From the NCBI GenBank assembly GCA_018667995.1, contig JABIQT010000667.1, forward strand, positions 1 through 11,567: a stretch of DNA of 11,567 nt. Reading direction: 5' to 3'. Numbering within the stretch: position 1 is the first letter of the stretch; each line of letters opens with the position of its first letter. Both the position numbers and the translations under genes were made by a program. The stretch comes from Candidatus Latescibacterota bacterium. GTDB taxonomy: Bacteria; JAAXHH01; JABIQT01. The notes beneath the pieces were generated by a model. That model was given only the letters and a program-made list of their open reading frames with translations, did no database searches and was not told the origin of the DNA. This document shows, one piece after another, positions 3,131 to 11,567 of this stretch.

Positions 3131-3799
3131 CTAGACGAACGATGCGATTTCACCGAGAGATTTCTTAGTGATATCGGGTACCTGTGCCTGCTCATCCGGA
3201 TAGCCAACAACCAGCAACAAGAATGGCCGCTCATGGGCTGGTCGTCCCAAGATCTTGTTGAGGAAATTCATGGGACTGGGTGTGTGGGTCAGCGTGGCCA
3301 ACCCCGCGTGATGCAATGCCGTAATGAGTATGCCTGACGCAATGCCCACCGACTCCACCGCATAGTAGTGCTTCACCTTTCGACCGTCCGGCAAAATTCC
3401 GTGTCGTTGCGCGAATATGGCGATCAAAAAAGGAGCTGTCTCCAGGAAAGGTTTGTGTTGGTCGGTCCCAAGTGGAGCAAGCGCATCTAGCCACTCCTGC
3501 GGTGCCTTACTGTTATAGAATTCCTGTTCCTCTTCCTCAGCAGCTTCACGGATCTGCCGCTTCACATCAGTGTCAGATACCACGACAAAGTGCCAGGGCT
3601 GCATATTGGCTCCATTGGGAGCTGTGCCCGCGGCCAGAACACAATTCTCTACAATCGACCGTGGTACTGCGCGCTCGGAGAATTCCCGCACGGTCCGTCG
3701 GCGTCGAATTTCCCCATAGAACTCGGCCGCTCTGGCCTCCATCTCATCTGCGGGATATTCCTGATACGATGTCAGAGGGATGAAATTAGGTTGAGTCAT
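3131..3799 (-). CDS. Nitroreductase-fold flavoprotein resembling iodotyrosine deiodinase
   Basis: FMN enzyme of the nitroreductase superfamily, 222 residues, cytoplasmic. It resembles the iodotyrosine deiodinase (IYD) branch, which reductively removes halogen from halotyrosines, far more than the general nitroreductases. The FMN-binding RRRRTVREF is at 32-40 and the [11 protein letters not shown] segment at 59-69. By ungapped alignment with my memory of human IYD, E91, Y95 and K116 fall on human E157, Y161 and K182, the residues that clamp the substrate's amino acid zwitterion. LGRPAHE at 184-190 and VVGYP at 197-201 also match the IYD C-terminal half. There is no membrane anchor, as in other bacterial forms. 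AGGA (3807-3810) lies 7 bases before the ATG, supporting this start. It is last in the minus-strand cluster, 112 bases after the small membrane protein gene. Substrate specificity is inferred, not shown. Confidence 0.9.
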
Positions 3800-3911
3800 T
3801 GCTATTTCCTAAGGAATTAGTGCTGGACTTGTGGTAAGAGGACAGGGGACTTCGCAACAGGGGGTATCGGCTTTGACACGCTTATTCTCTGCATATTACT
3901 CGCATAGAACC

Positions 3912-4910: not shown

Positions 4911-5507
4911 CTATAGATCCAACCAGACAAATCCATCGGCGCTTCGATAATACACGGCCAGTGCACGTCCATATATGGCGTCTTCATCAATCATCCCAAA
5001 TATCCGGCCATCTCGACTGTTACCTCGGGCATCACCAATAGTCAGGACGAGGCCAGGTGGGACTAAAGTCGGATCTAAATGGGGACCGCCACCATGTTTC
5101 AGATTCAGATGAACGGTACGTTCGCCAAAGACTTCCATTGCAGCATCCTGGCGACCGTAGAGATATTCACCATTGATGCTCACCCGACCGCCTCGTATGG
5201 CAACGGTATCCCCGGCAACGGCCACGACACGCTTCACCAGGCGTACATCCTCTACCGGAGAGTCGAATATCACCACTTCCCCCCGTGTCACCGGCGCATC
5301 CGTCAGCTTCCAATTGGTAAATGGAATTCGCATCCCGTACGCGCGTTTGTCCACAACTATCCGATCGCCGGGAACCAGCGTGTACTCCATTGAGCCTGTA
5401 GGCACCTCATAATGATCGGCCAATGACGAACGCCCGGCAAATAGTACAAGAGCCAGTATGGATAGGGATATCGCCTCTTTTGCTATCCCACGAAACCGCT
5501 TTTTCAT
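4911..5507 (-). CDS. lepB: Signal peptidase I
   Basis: Membrane-bound serine/lysine protease (family S26A) that removes signal peptides from exported proteins; 198 residues. A basic N-terminus (MKKRFRG) is followed by one membrane segment, about 10-25. The catalytic Ser39 lies in TGSMEYTLVPGD, where the usual SMxPT proline is Tyr. The general base Lys92 lies in RLVKRVVAVAGD. The later conserved box reads GDARGNSRDGRIFG at 158-171, against the usual GDNxxNSxDSRxFG, so two normally conserved positions differ. A longer frame opens at 5564, but it would overlap the upstream gene; ATG 5507 has GGAG 5 bases away and puts the start 23 bases after the previous stop. It sits between unrelated metabolic genes, so it may be a second, specialised copy. 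The family call is firm. Confidence 0.93.
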   Translation of the reverse strand: MKKRFRGIAKEAISLSILALVLFAGRSSLADHYEVPTGSMEYTLVPGDRIVVDKRAYGMRIPFTNWKLTDAPVTRGEVVIFDSPVEDVRLVKRVVAVAGDTVAIRGGRVSINGEYLYGRQDAAMEVFGERTVHLNLKHGGGPHLDPTLVPPGLVLTIGDARGNSRDGRIFGMIDEDAIYGRALAVYYRSADGFVWLDL

Positions 5508-5512
5508 TCTTG

Positions 5513-5516
5513 CTCC
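5513..5516 (-). promoter_or_regulatory. Ribosome binding site fixing the signal peptidase start
   Basis: GGAG on the minus strand, 5 bases before ATG 5507. It supports this start over the upstream in-frame ATG at 5564, which lies inside the beta-propeller gene. Confidence 0.75.
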
Positions 5517-5530
5517 AAGGCTGAAGACCT

Positions 5531-6235
5531 TCACTCCCCGCCACACTCGGCTTTCACAATCCATCCAGTCATGGCGTCACAGTAAATAAGATCAGTCCCA
5601 AGACGAGTCAGTCCATGAGGTTCGGGATGCTCGGGACCTATATCGATGGTATCCATGATTTTGCCGTCGACCAGATCAAGCTTGCAGATCTTTCGCGACT
5701 GTTTGAAGACCATCCAAAGCCCATCCGAAACGCGTGCCATACCATGACCGCCATCATATGGTAGCGGTACCGTCCGGCGTACGGACCAGTCCTCTATCAC
5801 GACCTGTGAGATGGTCTTCTCGTGAAGGGTACTCAACCAAATCGTGCCAGGTTCATAGCTGTCATAGTCGAGTCCATGAGTACCCCCGCCCCCGGGTAAC
5901 TGCCATCTTCCCTGTGTTTCTCCCGTGTAAGGGTTTACTCGAAGAATATCGCCCTTGATAGCATCCGTACCTCTCGCGGCACGCCACTTGCTGCCAGGCC
6001 CATTTGCCGCAAGCCACAGTGACCCATCACCATAGCTCACGCCGCTGGTTGTGGACGACTCTGTAGAGATTTCATGCAGTATTCTGGAAACGCCGTACTC
6101 GTGAGGATCTTCAGCCGCAACAAGACTCATGCGATCGGTAAGCTGGTCCACAATCCAAATTCCCTGTTCCGTGACCTGCAGTCCGTTTGGCACGGCATAG
6201 GGTGCCCTCATGTAATTTTCTATCTTCCGCGACAA
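5531..6235 (-). CDS. Beta-propeller protein, SMP-30/Vgb-like repeats
   Basis: Predicted cytoplasmic beta-propeller of 234 residues without signal peptide or membrane segment. Five copies of a (N/S/H)-G-(L/V/M)-x(4-8)-G-x-(I/L)-(W/I) unit begin near residues 17, 64, 120, 164 and 207. Examples are PNGLQVTEQGIWIVD, TSGVSYGDGSLWLAA and GHGMARVSDGLWMVF. A His precedes the Gly in the last three copies, suggesting a ring of histidines near the central channel, as in lactonase and Vgb-like lyase propellers where such residues bind metal or substrate. No specific enzyme can be assigned; gluconolactonase-like, lyase-like or purely binding roles are all open. The start is TTG with GGGGAG 6 bases upstream; an ATG eight codons further in has a poorer site. 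It lies 23 bases from each neighbour, so it is probably in an operon with threonine aldolase and signal peptidase. Confidence 0.75.
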   Translation of the reverse strand: MSRKIENYMRAPYAVPNGLQVTEQGIWIVDQLTDRMSLVAAEDPHEYGVSRILHEISTESSTTSGVSYGDGSLWLAANGPGSKWRAARGTDAIKGDILRVNPYTGETQGRWQLPGGGGTHGLDYDSYEPGTIWLSTLHEKTISQVVIEDWSVRRTVPLPYDGGHGMARVSDGLWMVFKQSRKICKLDLVDGKIMDTIDIGPEHPEPHGLTRLGTDLIYCDAMTGWIVKAECGGE

Positions 6236-8091: not shown

Positions 8092-9258
8092 ATGTCCTAT
8101 ACTACCTTGTGGGCCTATACTTGGGATCTAACCTACGAATCAACAGCCGATACAATAGCTTATCTAAAACAGGACGTGGGCCTGGACGCCCTCAGCGTTG
8201 CCACAAGTTACCACACGTATGAGATGCTCTGTCCCCACCGTAGTGGACCCAAATTCGTCTGGGCGCCTGAAGCGGCCGTATACTTCCAGCCTACGCTCTC
8301 CCACTATGAAAACACGCCTATCAAGCCCAATGTCAGTCCAACGGCTCGGGTGAATGACCCACTTCGGGAAATCGGAAATGCCTGTGTTGCCAACGGAATG
8401 GGACTGACATCGTGGACTGTTTGCCTCCATAACTCCTACTTAGCCTCAGCCTACCCGCAGCACGCCCAGGTCAACGCATTCGGGGATGTGTTGCCTCACG
8501 CTCCATGCCCGAGCAGTCCCGCCGTACGGGAGTATATGACAGCGCTATTGATAGATCTTACGACCAACTACCCGGTGACAGCCATTGAGGTCGAGACATT
8601 GAACTTCAACGGATACAGCCAGGGCCATTACCATGAGAAGATTGGTCTACCTATAGGCGCGCTCGAATCATTCCTATTCTCTCTCTGTTTCTGTGACCAC
8701 TGTTCCGATCGCGCGGGGACGGCCAACATCGATGCACAGCGTGTCCGATCATCAGTCGCTGAATACCTGGACAAATTCTGTTTGGACGGAACTCCATCGG
8801 AGCAGTCGATCGAGGATCATGTGGCAGGGAACGAAGAGCTTGCCGAGTACGTCAGGATGCGCGCCGAGACCGTCGCGTCCCTGACGCGTATGGTTAAGGG
8901 TGCTGTGACGGTTCCCGTTTACTATCTACTTATGGGGAACTACTTTGGAAGTGGAATGGACCACCACGAGATTTCGCGAATTGTAGACCGTGTGGAGATT
9001 TTGGCTTACAGCCCCGATACCGATCAGGTTCGCGAGAGCATAAGGCAGACCTGCAATCAAGGGATCGCACCCGAAAACATCCATGCGGGTTTCGGCGCCT
9101 ACTATCCGGCATCGCCTGACGAAGAAACTCTCATTGCAACGACGGAAGCCGCCCTCGATGAAGGCGTGAGTGGATTCTCATATTACAATTACGGCATCAT
9201 GCCTCGGCAAAATCTCCAGTGGGTCAAGTCGGCTGTCAAAGCCGTCAATGGTGCATAG
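8092..9258 (+). CDS. Uncharacterised TIM-barrel, glycoside-hydrolase-like protein
   Basis: Protein of 388 residues without signal peptide, so probably cytoplasmic. Its layout suggests a (beta/alpha)8 barrel of the hypothetical glycosidase type. Strand-like segments end in polar or aromatic residues: LWAYTWDL (6-13), LDALSVAT (31-38), MGLTSWTVCLHN (103-114), VTAIEVETLNFNG (162-174), VPVYYLLMGNYF (274-285), VEILAYSPDTD (301-311), IHAGFGAYYP (330-339) and VSGFSYYNYG (359-368). E166 and E168 at the end of a strand are candidate catalytic acids. A compact CxCxxC (C199, C201, C204, in CFCDHC) follows, as in some uncharacterised barrel hydrolases, and may bind a metal or iron. GGAG 6 bases before the ATG supports the start. 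The gene diverges from the RsbW-like gene and lies upstream of a secreted glycosidase, so a role in sugar breakdown is plausible but unproven. Confidence 0.85.
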   Translation: MSYTTLWAYTWDLTYESTADTIAYLKQDVGLDALSVATSYHTYEMLCPHRSGPKFVWAPEAAVYFQPTLSHYENTPIKPNVSPTARVNDPLREIGNACVANGMGLTSWTVCLHNSYLASAYPQHAQVNAFGDVLPHAPCPSSPAVREYMTALLIDLTTNYPVTAIEVETLNFNGYSQGHYHEKIGLPIGALESFLFSLCFCDHCSDRAGTANIDAQRVRSSVAEYLDKFCLDGTPSEQSIEDHVAGNEELAEYVRMRAETVASLTRMVKGAVTVPVYYLLMGNYFGSGMDHHEISRIVDRVEILAYSPDTDQVRESIRQTCNQGIAPENIHAGFGAYYPASPDEETLIATTEAALDEGVSGFSYYNYGIMPRQNLQWVKSAVKAVNGA

Positions 9259-9808: not shown

Positions 9809-11567
9809 ATGTTACCCGCTCGGCGATCAATGAATTTATCCCTGTTCAGTTATCTCACCATAGCACTGGCAATGAGTCCTCTCCATGCAGTCGCAGGAGC
9901 TTCTCAGGACTCAACGGCCACTCAGTTCCAGCCGTTTGAGATCAGACTGGAATCAACGCATATTTATGAGCATCCCACCGATCATATTTCTCTCTTTGCT
10001 GCTTTCACAGGGCCTCGGGGGGCGGTCAATGAAATCCGCGGATTCTGGGATGGCGACCGGACATGGCGAATTCGATTCTCTCCGCCCGATGCCGGTCCAT
10101 GGACATTCTCAACGTCGTGTTCAGATCGGTTGAATCCTGGTCTTCATGGTATTAAAGGGAGTTTTGAGGTCGGCAGAGCGGTCAGTGGTCTTCCATTTTC
10201 AAGGAGAGGCTGGCCGAGTGTCTCCGACAACGGCCGCCATCTCATTTACACAGATGGCACACCTTTCTTCTGGTTGGCCGATACCGCTTGGGAGATGACG
10301 TGGAAATCAAATACCGAGACCATGATTAGGTACCTCGATGATCGGAAACGGAAGGGATTCAATGTCATACAAGTCGTCGTACTTTCACATCAAATCATGC
10401 GATCTTTCGGCGTGGAGAACCGGCTGGGTGAGAAGGCTTTCCTGGATAATGATTTTGCACGCGTAAATCCTCGCTACTACGACTATCTCGACAGGATTGT
10501 ACTTGAGGCTAACAGTCGAGGGCTCGCCGTTGCGCTCGTGCCGCTCTGGGCAGCTATGACACGTCAACATAGTGACAACGAAACGCATCAAAGATTGTCT
10601 GACAAAGATGCCCTCGGCCTGGCATCATACATAGGGGCCAGATATGCGGGCGACAACGTAATCTGGATGATTGGCGGCGACAATAGTTACGATTCAGCTC
10701 CACAACGGGAATTCTGGCGGAATTTCGCCGAGGCGATAAACATCGCCAGCGGGGATATGCACCTTACCACCATCCATCCCAAAGGGTTGACCGCCTCATT
10801 CGATTACTTCGGCGAAGGGGCGGATTGGTTGGATTTTCATGCCTACCAGTCCTCCCATCTGGCGGGCGGCACTTACACGTTCAGGGCAGCTGCGTCAGGA
10901 TATCGTCTGAAGCAGCCAAAGCCCATTCTGAACGCCGAAGCAACCTACGAAGATATATTTCACAACCTGTGGGAACCTGGTGACACAAAGAACGTGCACA
11001 CATTCCGTATTCGGCCGGAACACGTGCGACAGTCCAGTTACGAGAGCATTCTCTCCGGCGCCTTGGTCGGGATTACATATGGCGCGAACGGTGTCTGGCA
11101 GTGGGCTACTGAGGAAATTGGGGGGACTCATCTACCGCGTACCACCGTCAAAGAGGCCTGGTCCTTCCCAGGCTCATTCCAGATGACGGTTCTAAAGGAT
11201 ATCATGACCGGGCACCGATGGTTTGAGATAACGCCCCGTCCAGAATATGTTGTTGCGAAGACTCCGGGGGACCGGTACATTCCGCTCGCCCGTAACCGTG
11301 ATAACATCATTGTGTACATTCCGCAAAACACAGAGTCCGTGGTGCTACGCACCTATGACTTTGTGATTCGCGGGGATCAATCATGGATCGATCCGCAATC
11401 TGGATTGACTCTGAATGTACAGGCTCCCAATTTCGGCCGGGGCCCAGTAGTCTTGGAGACGCCGGATAGTCGGGATTGGGTAGTCATTTTGCATCGGTCG
11501 AAACAAGTTTTCTCGTGGGATGGCACTCAAATCCCTGCGTCCAGTACTTTGCATCAGAATGCACCCA
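9809..11567 (+). CDS. Secreted DUF5060/DUF4038 glycoside-hydrolase-like protein, 3' end outside the window
   Basis: One uninterrupted frame of 586 codons that runs off the window end. Residues 1-31 look like a signal peptide: MLPARR, then a hydrophobic core and AVAGA as a possible cleavage site. About 40-122 fits the beta-sandwich DUF5060, with FTGPRG, GFWDGDRTWRIRF and GPWTFST. From about 144 a DUF4038 (apiosidase-like) TIM barrel begins with YTDGTPFFWLADTAWEM and includes VIWMIGGDNSYD (284-295) and PILNAEATYED (372-382). E377 is a candidate catalytic glutamate and D291 a candidate acid. From about 470 a beta-rich region may be the C-terminal collagen-binding-like domain often found in these proteins. 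It likely acts on plant or algal polysaccharide side chains outside the cytoplasm. I prefer ATG 9809 for its basic n-region; ATG 9830 is the alternative. Neither has a strong ribosome site. Substrate is unknown. Confidence 0.88.
   Translation, partial: MLPARRSMNLSLFSYLTIALAMSPLHAVAGASQDSTATQFQPFEIRLESTHIYEHPTDHISLFAAFTGPRGAVNEIRGFWDGDRTWRIRFSPPDAGPWTFSTSCSDRLNPGLHGIKGSFEVGRAVSGLPFSRRGWPSVSDNGRHLIYTDGTPFFWLADTAWEMTWKSNTETMIRYLDDRKRKGFNVIQVVVLSHQIMRSFGVENRLGEKAFLDNDFARVNPRYYDYLDRIVLEANSRGLAVALVPLWAAMTRQHSDNETHQRLSDKDALGLASYIGARYAGDNVIWMIGGDNSYDSAPQREFWRNFAEAINIASGDMHLTTIHPKGLTASFDYFGEGADWLDFHAYQSSHLAGGTYTFRAAASGYRLKQPKPILNAEATYEDIFHNLWEPGDTKNVHTFRIRPEHVRQSSYESILSGALVGITYGANGVWQWATEEIGGTHLPRTTVKEAWSFPGSFQMTVLKDIMTGHRWFEITPRPEYVVAKTPGDRYIPLARNRDNIIVYIPQNTESVVLRTYDFVIRGDQSWIDPQSGLTLNVQAPNFGRGPVVLETPDSRDWVVILHRSKQVFSWDGTQIPASSTLHQNAP

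Follow-up and report, generated by a model that had tools for sequence, protein, structure and literature searches.

An iodotyrosine deiodinase homologue with a complete substrate clamp in an uncultured bacterial phylum that includes sponge-associated members

Iodotyrosine deiodinase (IYD, also termed DEHAL1) is the thyroid dehalogenase that takes iodine, and also bromine, off halotyrosines. The animal enzyme has an N-terminal membrane anchor; bacterial versions were recognized about ten years ago. Structures are available for human and mouse IYD (4ttb, 4ttc, 3gb5, 3gfd, and 3gh8), for the IYD of Haliscomenobacter hydrossis (5ko7, 5ko8, and 5krd), and for the more distant 6pz0, which its depositors named IYD and which we take to come from a Thermotoga-type organism. 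On the basis of established knowledge and the ligand-bound PDB entries, we take E157, Y161, and K182 of the human enzyme to form the substrate clamp, T239 to lie near flavin N5, and R100, R101, and R104 to hold the FMN phosphate (human residue numbers are chain numbers plus 30; the clamp residues are 127/131/152 in the chain).

We analyzed an 11,567-nucleotide stretch of a Candidatus Latescibacterota genome (contig JABIQT010000667.1), referred to here as the window. A preliminary description had located an IYD homologue in it, and the open reading frame given there was exact. The gene and the elements discussed below are as follows:

3131..3799, minus strand: IYD homologue, 222 aa plus stop (open reading frame, family, tree, and predicted-fold evidence)
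3803..3812, minus strand: ribosome-binding-like TTAGGAAATA upstream of the ATG (by eye)
3686..3700, minus strand: FMN-phosphate arginines R34, R35, and R38, corresponding to human R100, R101, and R104 (alignment, homologue sets)
3446..3529, minus strand: lid segment, codons 91-118, with E91, Y95, and K116, the substrate zwitterion clamp (gap-free alignment, homologue invariance)
3281..3283, minus strand: codon of T173, the equivalent of human T239 near flavin N5 (alignment, 87 homologues)

The gene starts with ATG, and an AGGAA was seen by eye a few bases upstream. Substitutions relative to related genes are distributed 44/20/144 over the three codon positions across 220 codons; this dominance of third positions indicates a functioning coding gene. 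It is the single IYD copy in the window genome, where all other nitroreductase matches are weak, none better than E 4e-5. The gene stands alone, with the next minus-strand gene about 320 bp away in the 5' direction and a convergent 3-hydroxybutyrate dehydrogenase gene as its 3' neighbor. Clustering the neighbors of 81 IYD loci revealed clade-level synteny only, none of it common to the window, and no conserved neighbor suggestive of halogen chemistry or of a partner reductase; thus, no functional partner can be proposed. Elsewhere in the window are a signal peptidase I gene (4911-6235, minus strand) that shares 34 bp with a beta-propeller-like ORF whose sole match, to Vgb_lyase, is weak, a 388-aa ORF without a match in Pfam or NCBIfam (8092-9258, plus strand), and an apiosidase-like glycoside hydrolase with DUF5060 (9809-11567, plus strand; E 1.4e-85) that runs past the window end.

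Automatic annotation would label this protein generically, as the preliminary description had said of nitroreductase-fold genes: PF00881 (Nitroreductase, E 2.4e-24) is the sole Pfam model above its cut-off, and all NCBIfam equivalogs stay below theirs. These calls are what one would also expect of a general nitroreductase or flavin reductase wrongly taken for an IYD, an explanation that the following comparisons already contradict and that we consider very improbable. A phmmer search of the PDB returned H. hydrossis IYD first (E 6.6e-79, 57% identity over 213 residues), followed by mouse and human IYD (about 1e-56, 1.4e-56 for human; about 47% identity), then 6pz0 (3e-25), and only then ordinary nitroreductases; a family profile gave the same order. 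The ranking thus drops from 1e-56 to 1e-25 after the first IYDs. Matches to TAL-effector repeats covered only ~30 residues and were taken as chance similarity. Generic nitroreductases aligned mostly only to about residue 90, without the lid residues, and the E/Y/K set was absent from all 14 used as an outgroup.

A maximum-likelihood tree of 103 proteins (the query, animal IYDs, H. hydrossis IYD, 85 bacterial homologues, and the 14 nitroreductases) separated the query together with human, mouse, H. hydrossis, and bacterial IYDs from the nitroreductases on a branch of length 2.16 with SH-aLRT 99, in what is a quick tree with long outgroup branches; the placement of the query among bacterial IYDs was poorly resolved. 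The query therefore falls inside the IYD clade, and membership of the 222-aa protein in the known IYD family is supported, the preliminary description having been right about gene, residues, and family. Compared with human IYD, it has THTPSP where the human protein has TTTPLN, lacks the N-terminal membrane anchor of the animal enzymes, and has no thyroid role.

The clamp residues proposed in the preliminary description were confirmed by alignment to both human and H. hydrossis IYD: E91, Y95, and K116 correspond to human E157, Y161, and K182 with no gap between them, and occupy the same residue numbers in the H. hydrossis enzyme. Only two gaps separate the query from human IYD, each of a single residue, close to the N-terminus and around residue 178. 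LGRPAHE, followed by VGYP, is shared with the human protein, as had also been claimed. The FMN arginines, T173, and an SPMNF loop are likewise shared with H. hydrossis IYD, which comes from a different phylum and has S62 and A169 where the query has N62 and T169; position 62 corresponds to human S128 and is also N in 30 of 87 homologues. Six residues (E91, Y95, W103, K116, T171, and T173) were invariant among these 87 homologues, drawn from many phyla. Since the peptide patterns used to collect homologues overlapped the lid, we rechecked invariance on 28 sequences from a whole-protein search, which retained E in 28/28, K in 28/28, and Y in 27/28, with one W; the six residues as a group were nearly invariant in this set too. 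A natural variant of the clamp occurs in the IYD homologue L125, where Trp replaces Tyr95 and the Glu and Lys are kept.

The predicted structure points the same way. An AlphaFold2 monomer model built from a 50-sequence alignment (pLDDT 92.1, pTM 0.89) matched halotyrosine-bound IYDs with Z scores of 28.1-28.3 (28.3 for the iodotyrosine complex of H. hydrossis IYD) and an rmsd of 1.1-1.2 over 217-219 residues, lid included; the fit to the human and mouse folds is within this range. IYD structures without an amino-acid ligand have shorter chains (184-202 residues) and aligned over 182-200. The fit across the whole lid to ligand-bound structures indicates that the lid was modeled much like the substrate-bound state. 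Because the model superposes on iodotyrosine-bound IYDs in this way, E91, Y95, and K116 are predicted to face the flavin, in keeping with the preliminary description. Similarity to 6pz0 was lower (Z 23.0): it has the same fold, but is only 32% identical, shorter (185 residues), and without the N-terminal arm. The next named structural family was BluB, 5,6-dimethylbenzimidazole synthase (2isj), which shares the nitroreductase fold (Z 18.6) but only 20% identity. BluB itself was rejected as an identity for the query, which scores 62.5 bits against the TIGR02476 cut-off of 150. Fold and tree alike thus group the query with IYD and not with general nitroreductases.

The best explanation, to which we assign a probability of roughly 0.88, is that the gene encodes a soluble, FMN-dependent, bacterial-type IYD that uses the clamp mechanism in halotyrosine salvage or detoxification; halotyrosine as its substrate, its electron donor, and its physiological role are what we infer. 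This explanation is based on sequence, clade, predicted fold, invariant residues, and the presence of hpd and an hmgA-like gene (see below). In the proposed mechanism, a free mono- or dihalotyrosine (iodo- or bromo-) would stack on reduced FMN under the helical lid, its ammonium and carboxylate groups gripped by E91, Y95, and K116 and its phenolate held by the backbone around A64 together with the FMN 2'-hydroxyl. At flavin N5, T173 would support one-electron steps, after which halide would leave and tyrosine be released. A bromotyrosine substrate is consistent with published work, in which IYD (DEHAL1) debrominated free bromotyrosine and dibromotyrosine in vitro (PMC4708624).

The clamp reads the alpha-amino-acid part of its ligand and not the halogen, so that an IYD-fold enzyme could instead act on another ortho-substituted or otherwise modified tyrosine, with dehalogenation as a side activity. 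No substrate is known for the C. elegans orthologue SUP-18 (PMC3930498), and some lineages that carry bacterial IYDs lack an obvious halotyrosine supply, for example groundwater and lake metagenome-assembled genomes (MAGs), judging by record titles. Against this stand the 57% identity to an enzyme crystallized with iodotyrosine bound (5ko8) and the retention of all active-site positions checked, and we consider such a substrate improbable.

If the query is a halotyrosine dehalogenase, its likely role would be to salvage or detoxify free halotyrosines from outside the cell, the freed tyrosine passing into protein or being degraded via 4-hydroxyphenylpyruvate and homogentisate. The window genome encodes hpd (4-hydroxyphenylpyruvate dioxygenase; 434.7 bits, cut-off 277) adjoining a divergent hmgA-like (homogentisate-dioxygenase-like) gene (69 bits against an NCBIfam cut-off of 511; G000:C1129, L118:316-2604), and dehalogenated tyrosine could therefore be degraded. 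Both families were also matched in G013, G011, and G001. In the sponge-associated genus g3, which carries IYD, neither hpd nor hmgA scored above cut-off; the degradation step is therefore not common to the sponge-associated relatives, and in this genus incorporation of the tyrosine into protein or simple detoxification stands as an equal alternative.

A halogenase as an internal source of halotyrosine was considered and found not credible, as PF04820 matches in the window genome were all weak (best E 6.5e-7). IYD-carrying sponge-associated relatives have a stronger match, a PF04820 tryptophan-halogenase-like flavoprotein (157.6 bits; L113:161-1447, minus strand, with equivalents in G002-G010, G012, and G015) adjoining a class I/II-type aminotransferase; no halogenase equivalog passes for this flavoprotein.

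Peptide-pattern searches recovered 80 IYD loci (61-78% identity) from some fifteen phyla; to judge by record titles, their sources include marine, lake, and groundwater MAGs. The preliminary description had raised marine sources of halotyrosine; the sponge-associated relatives of the window genome favor this, while the non-marine lineages mean that the source need not be marine. The nearest relative, L004 (78% identity), has a record name, ERR599008, that suggests an ocean plankton sample. Within the window's phylum, IYD was present in 13 of 16 genomes examined, and in 9/9 of those with completeness of 90% or more and contamination of 5% or less, compared with 16/193 genomes of another phylum and 1/43 genomes taken from across the domain (Fisher tests, p of about 1e-10 and 1e-9, respectively, with shared ancestry ignored).

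Over 3,660 bp, eight genomes of the phylum match public MAGs with 100% identity; most of these MAGs are named Candidatus Latescibacterota or Gemmatimonadetes, the others uncultured bacterium. Among these matches, the series jk18x7bins was obtained from an Ircinia sponge of the Caribbean (PMC9531527); a sponge origin is also suggested by the MAG names APA_bin and IRC1_bin. In Dictyoceratida and Verongida, the sponge skeletons are reported to hold 3-iodo-, 3,5-diiodo-, and 3,5-dibromotyrosine, and dibromotyrosine is the main halogenated amino acid of Ianthella basta (PMC5334614). Sponge-skeleton halotyrosines are a possible source of IYD substrate. A search of the open-access literature returned nothing relevant on IYD in sponges, sponge symbionts, or metagenomes; the work that we found on the sponge organohalogen cycle considers anaerobic debrominating bacteria (PMC12203066).

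Near-universal IYD in a small phylum with sponge-associated members lifts this gene above the routine. Its occurrence in most of the phylum's genomes examined, sponge symbionts among them, and in few elsewhere names a habitat with halotyrosines and makes the question of what bacterial IYDs do in nature testable. We put forward, tentatively and with the balance against it, that IYD in this small uncultured phylum removes iodine and bromine from halotyrosines that are set free from bromotyrosine metabolites and the skeletal protein of sponges, a form of halogen recycling within the holobiont that differs from anaerobic organohalide respiration. If true, IYD would be an added enzyme in the sponge organohalogen cycle, and, in an uncultured group, the bacterial version of a known thyroid enzyme would gain a plausible function in nature.
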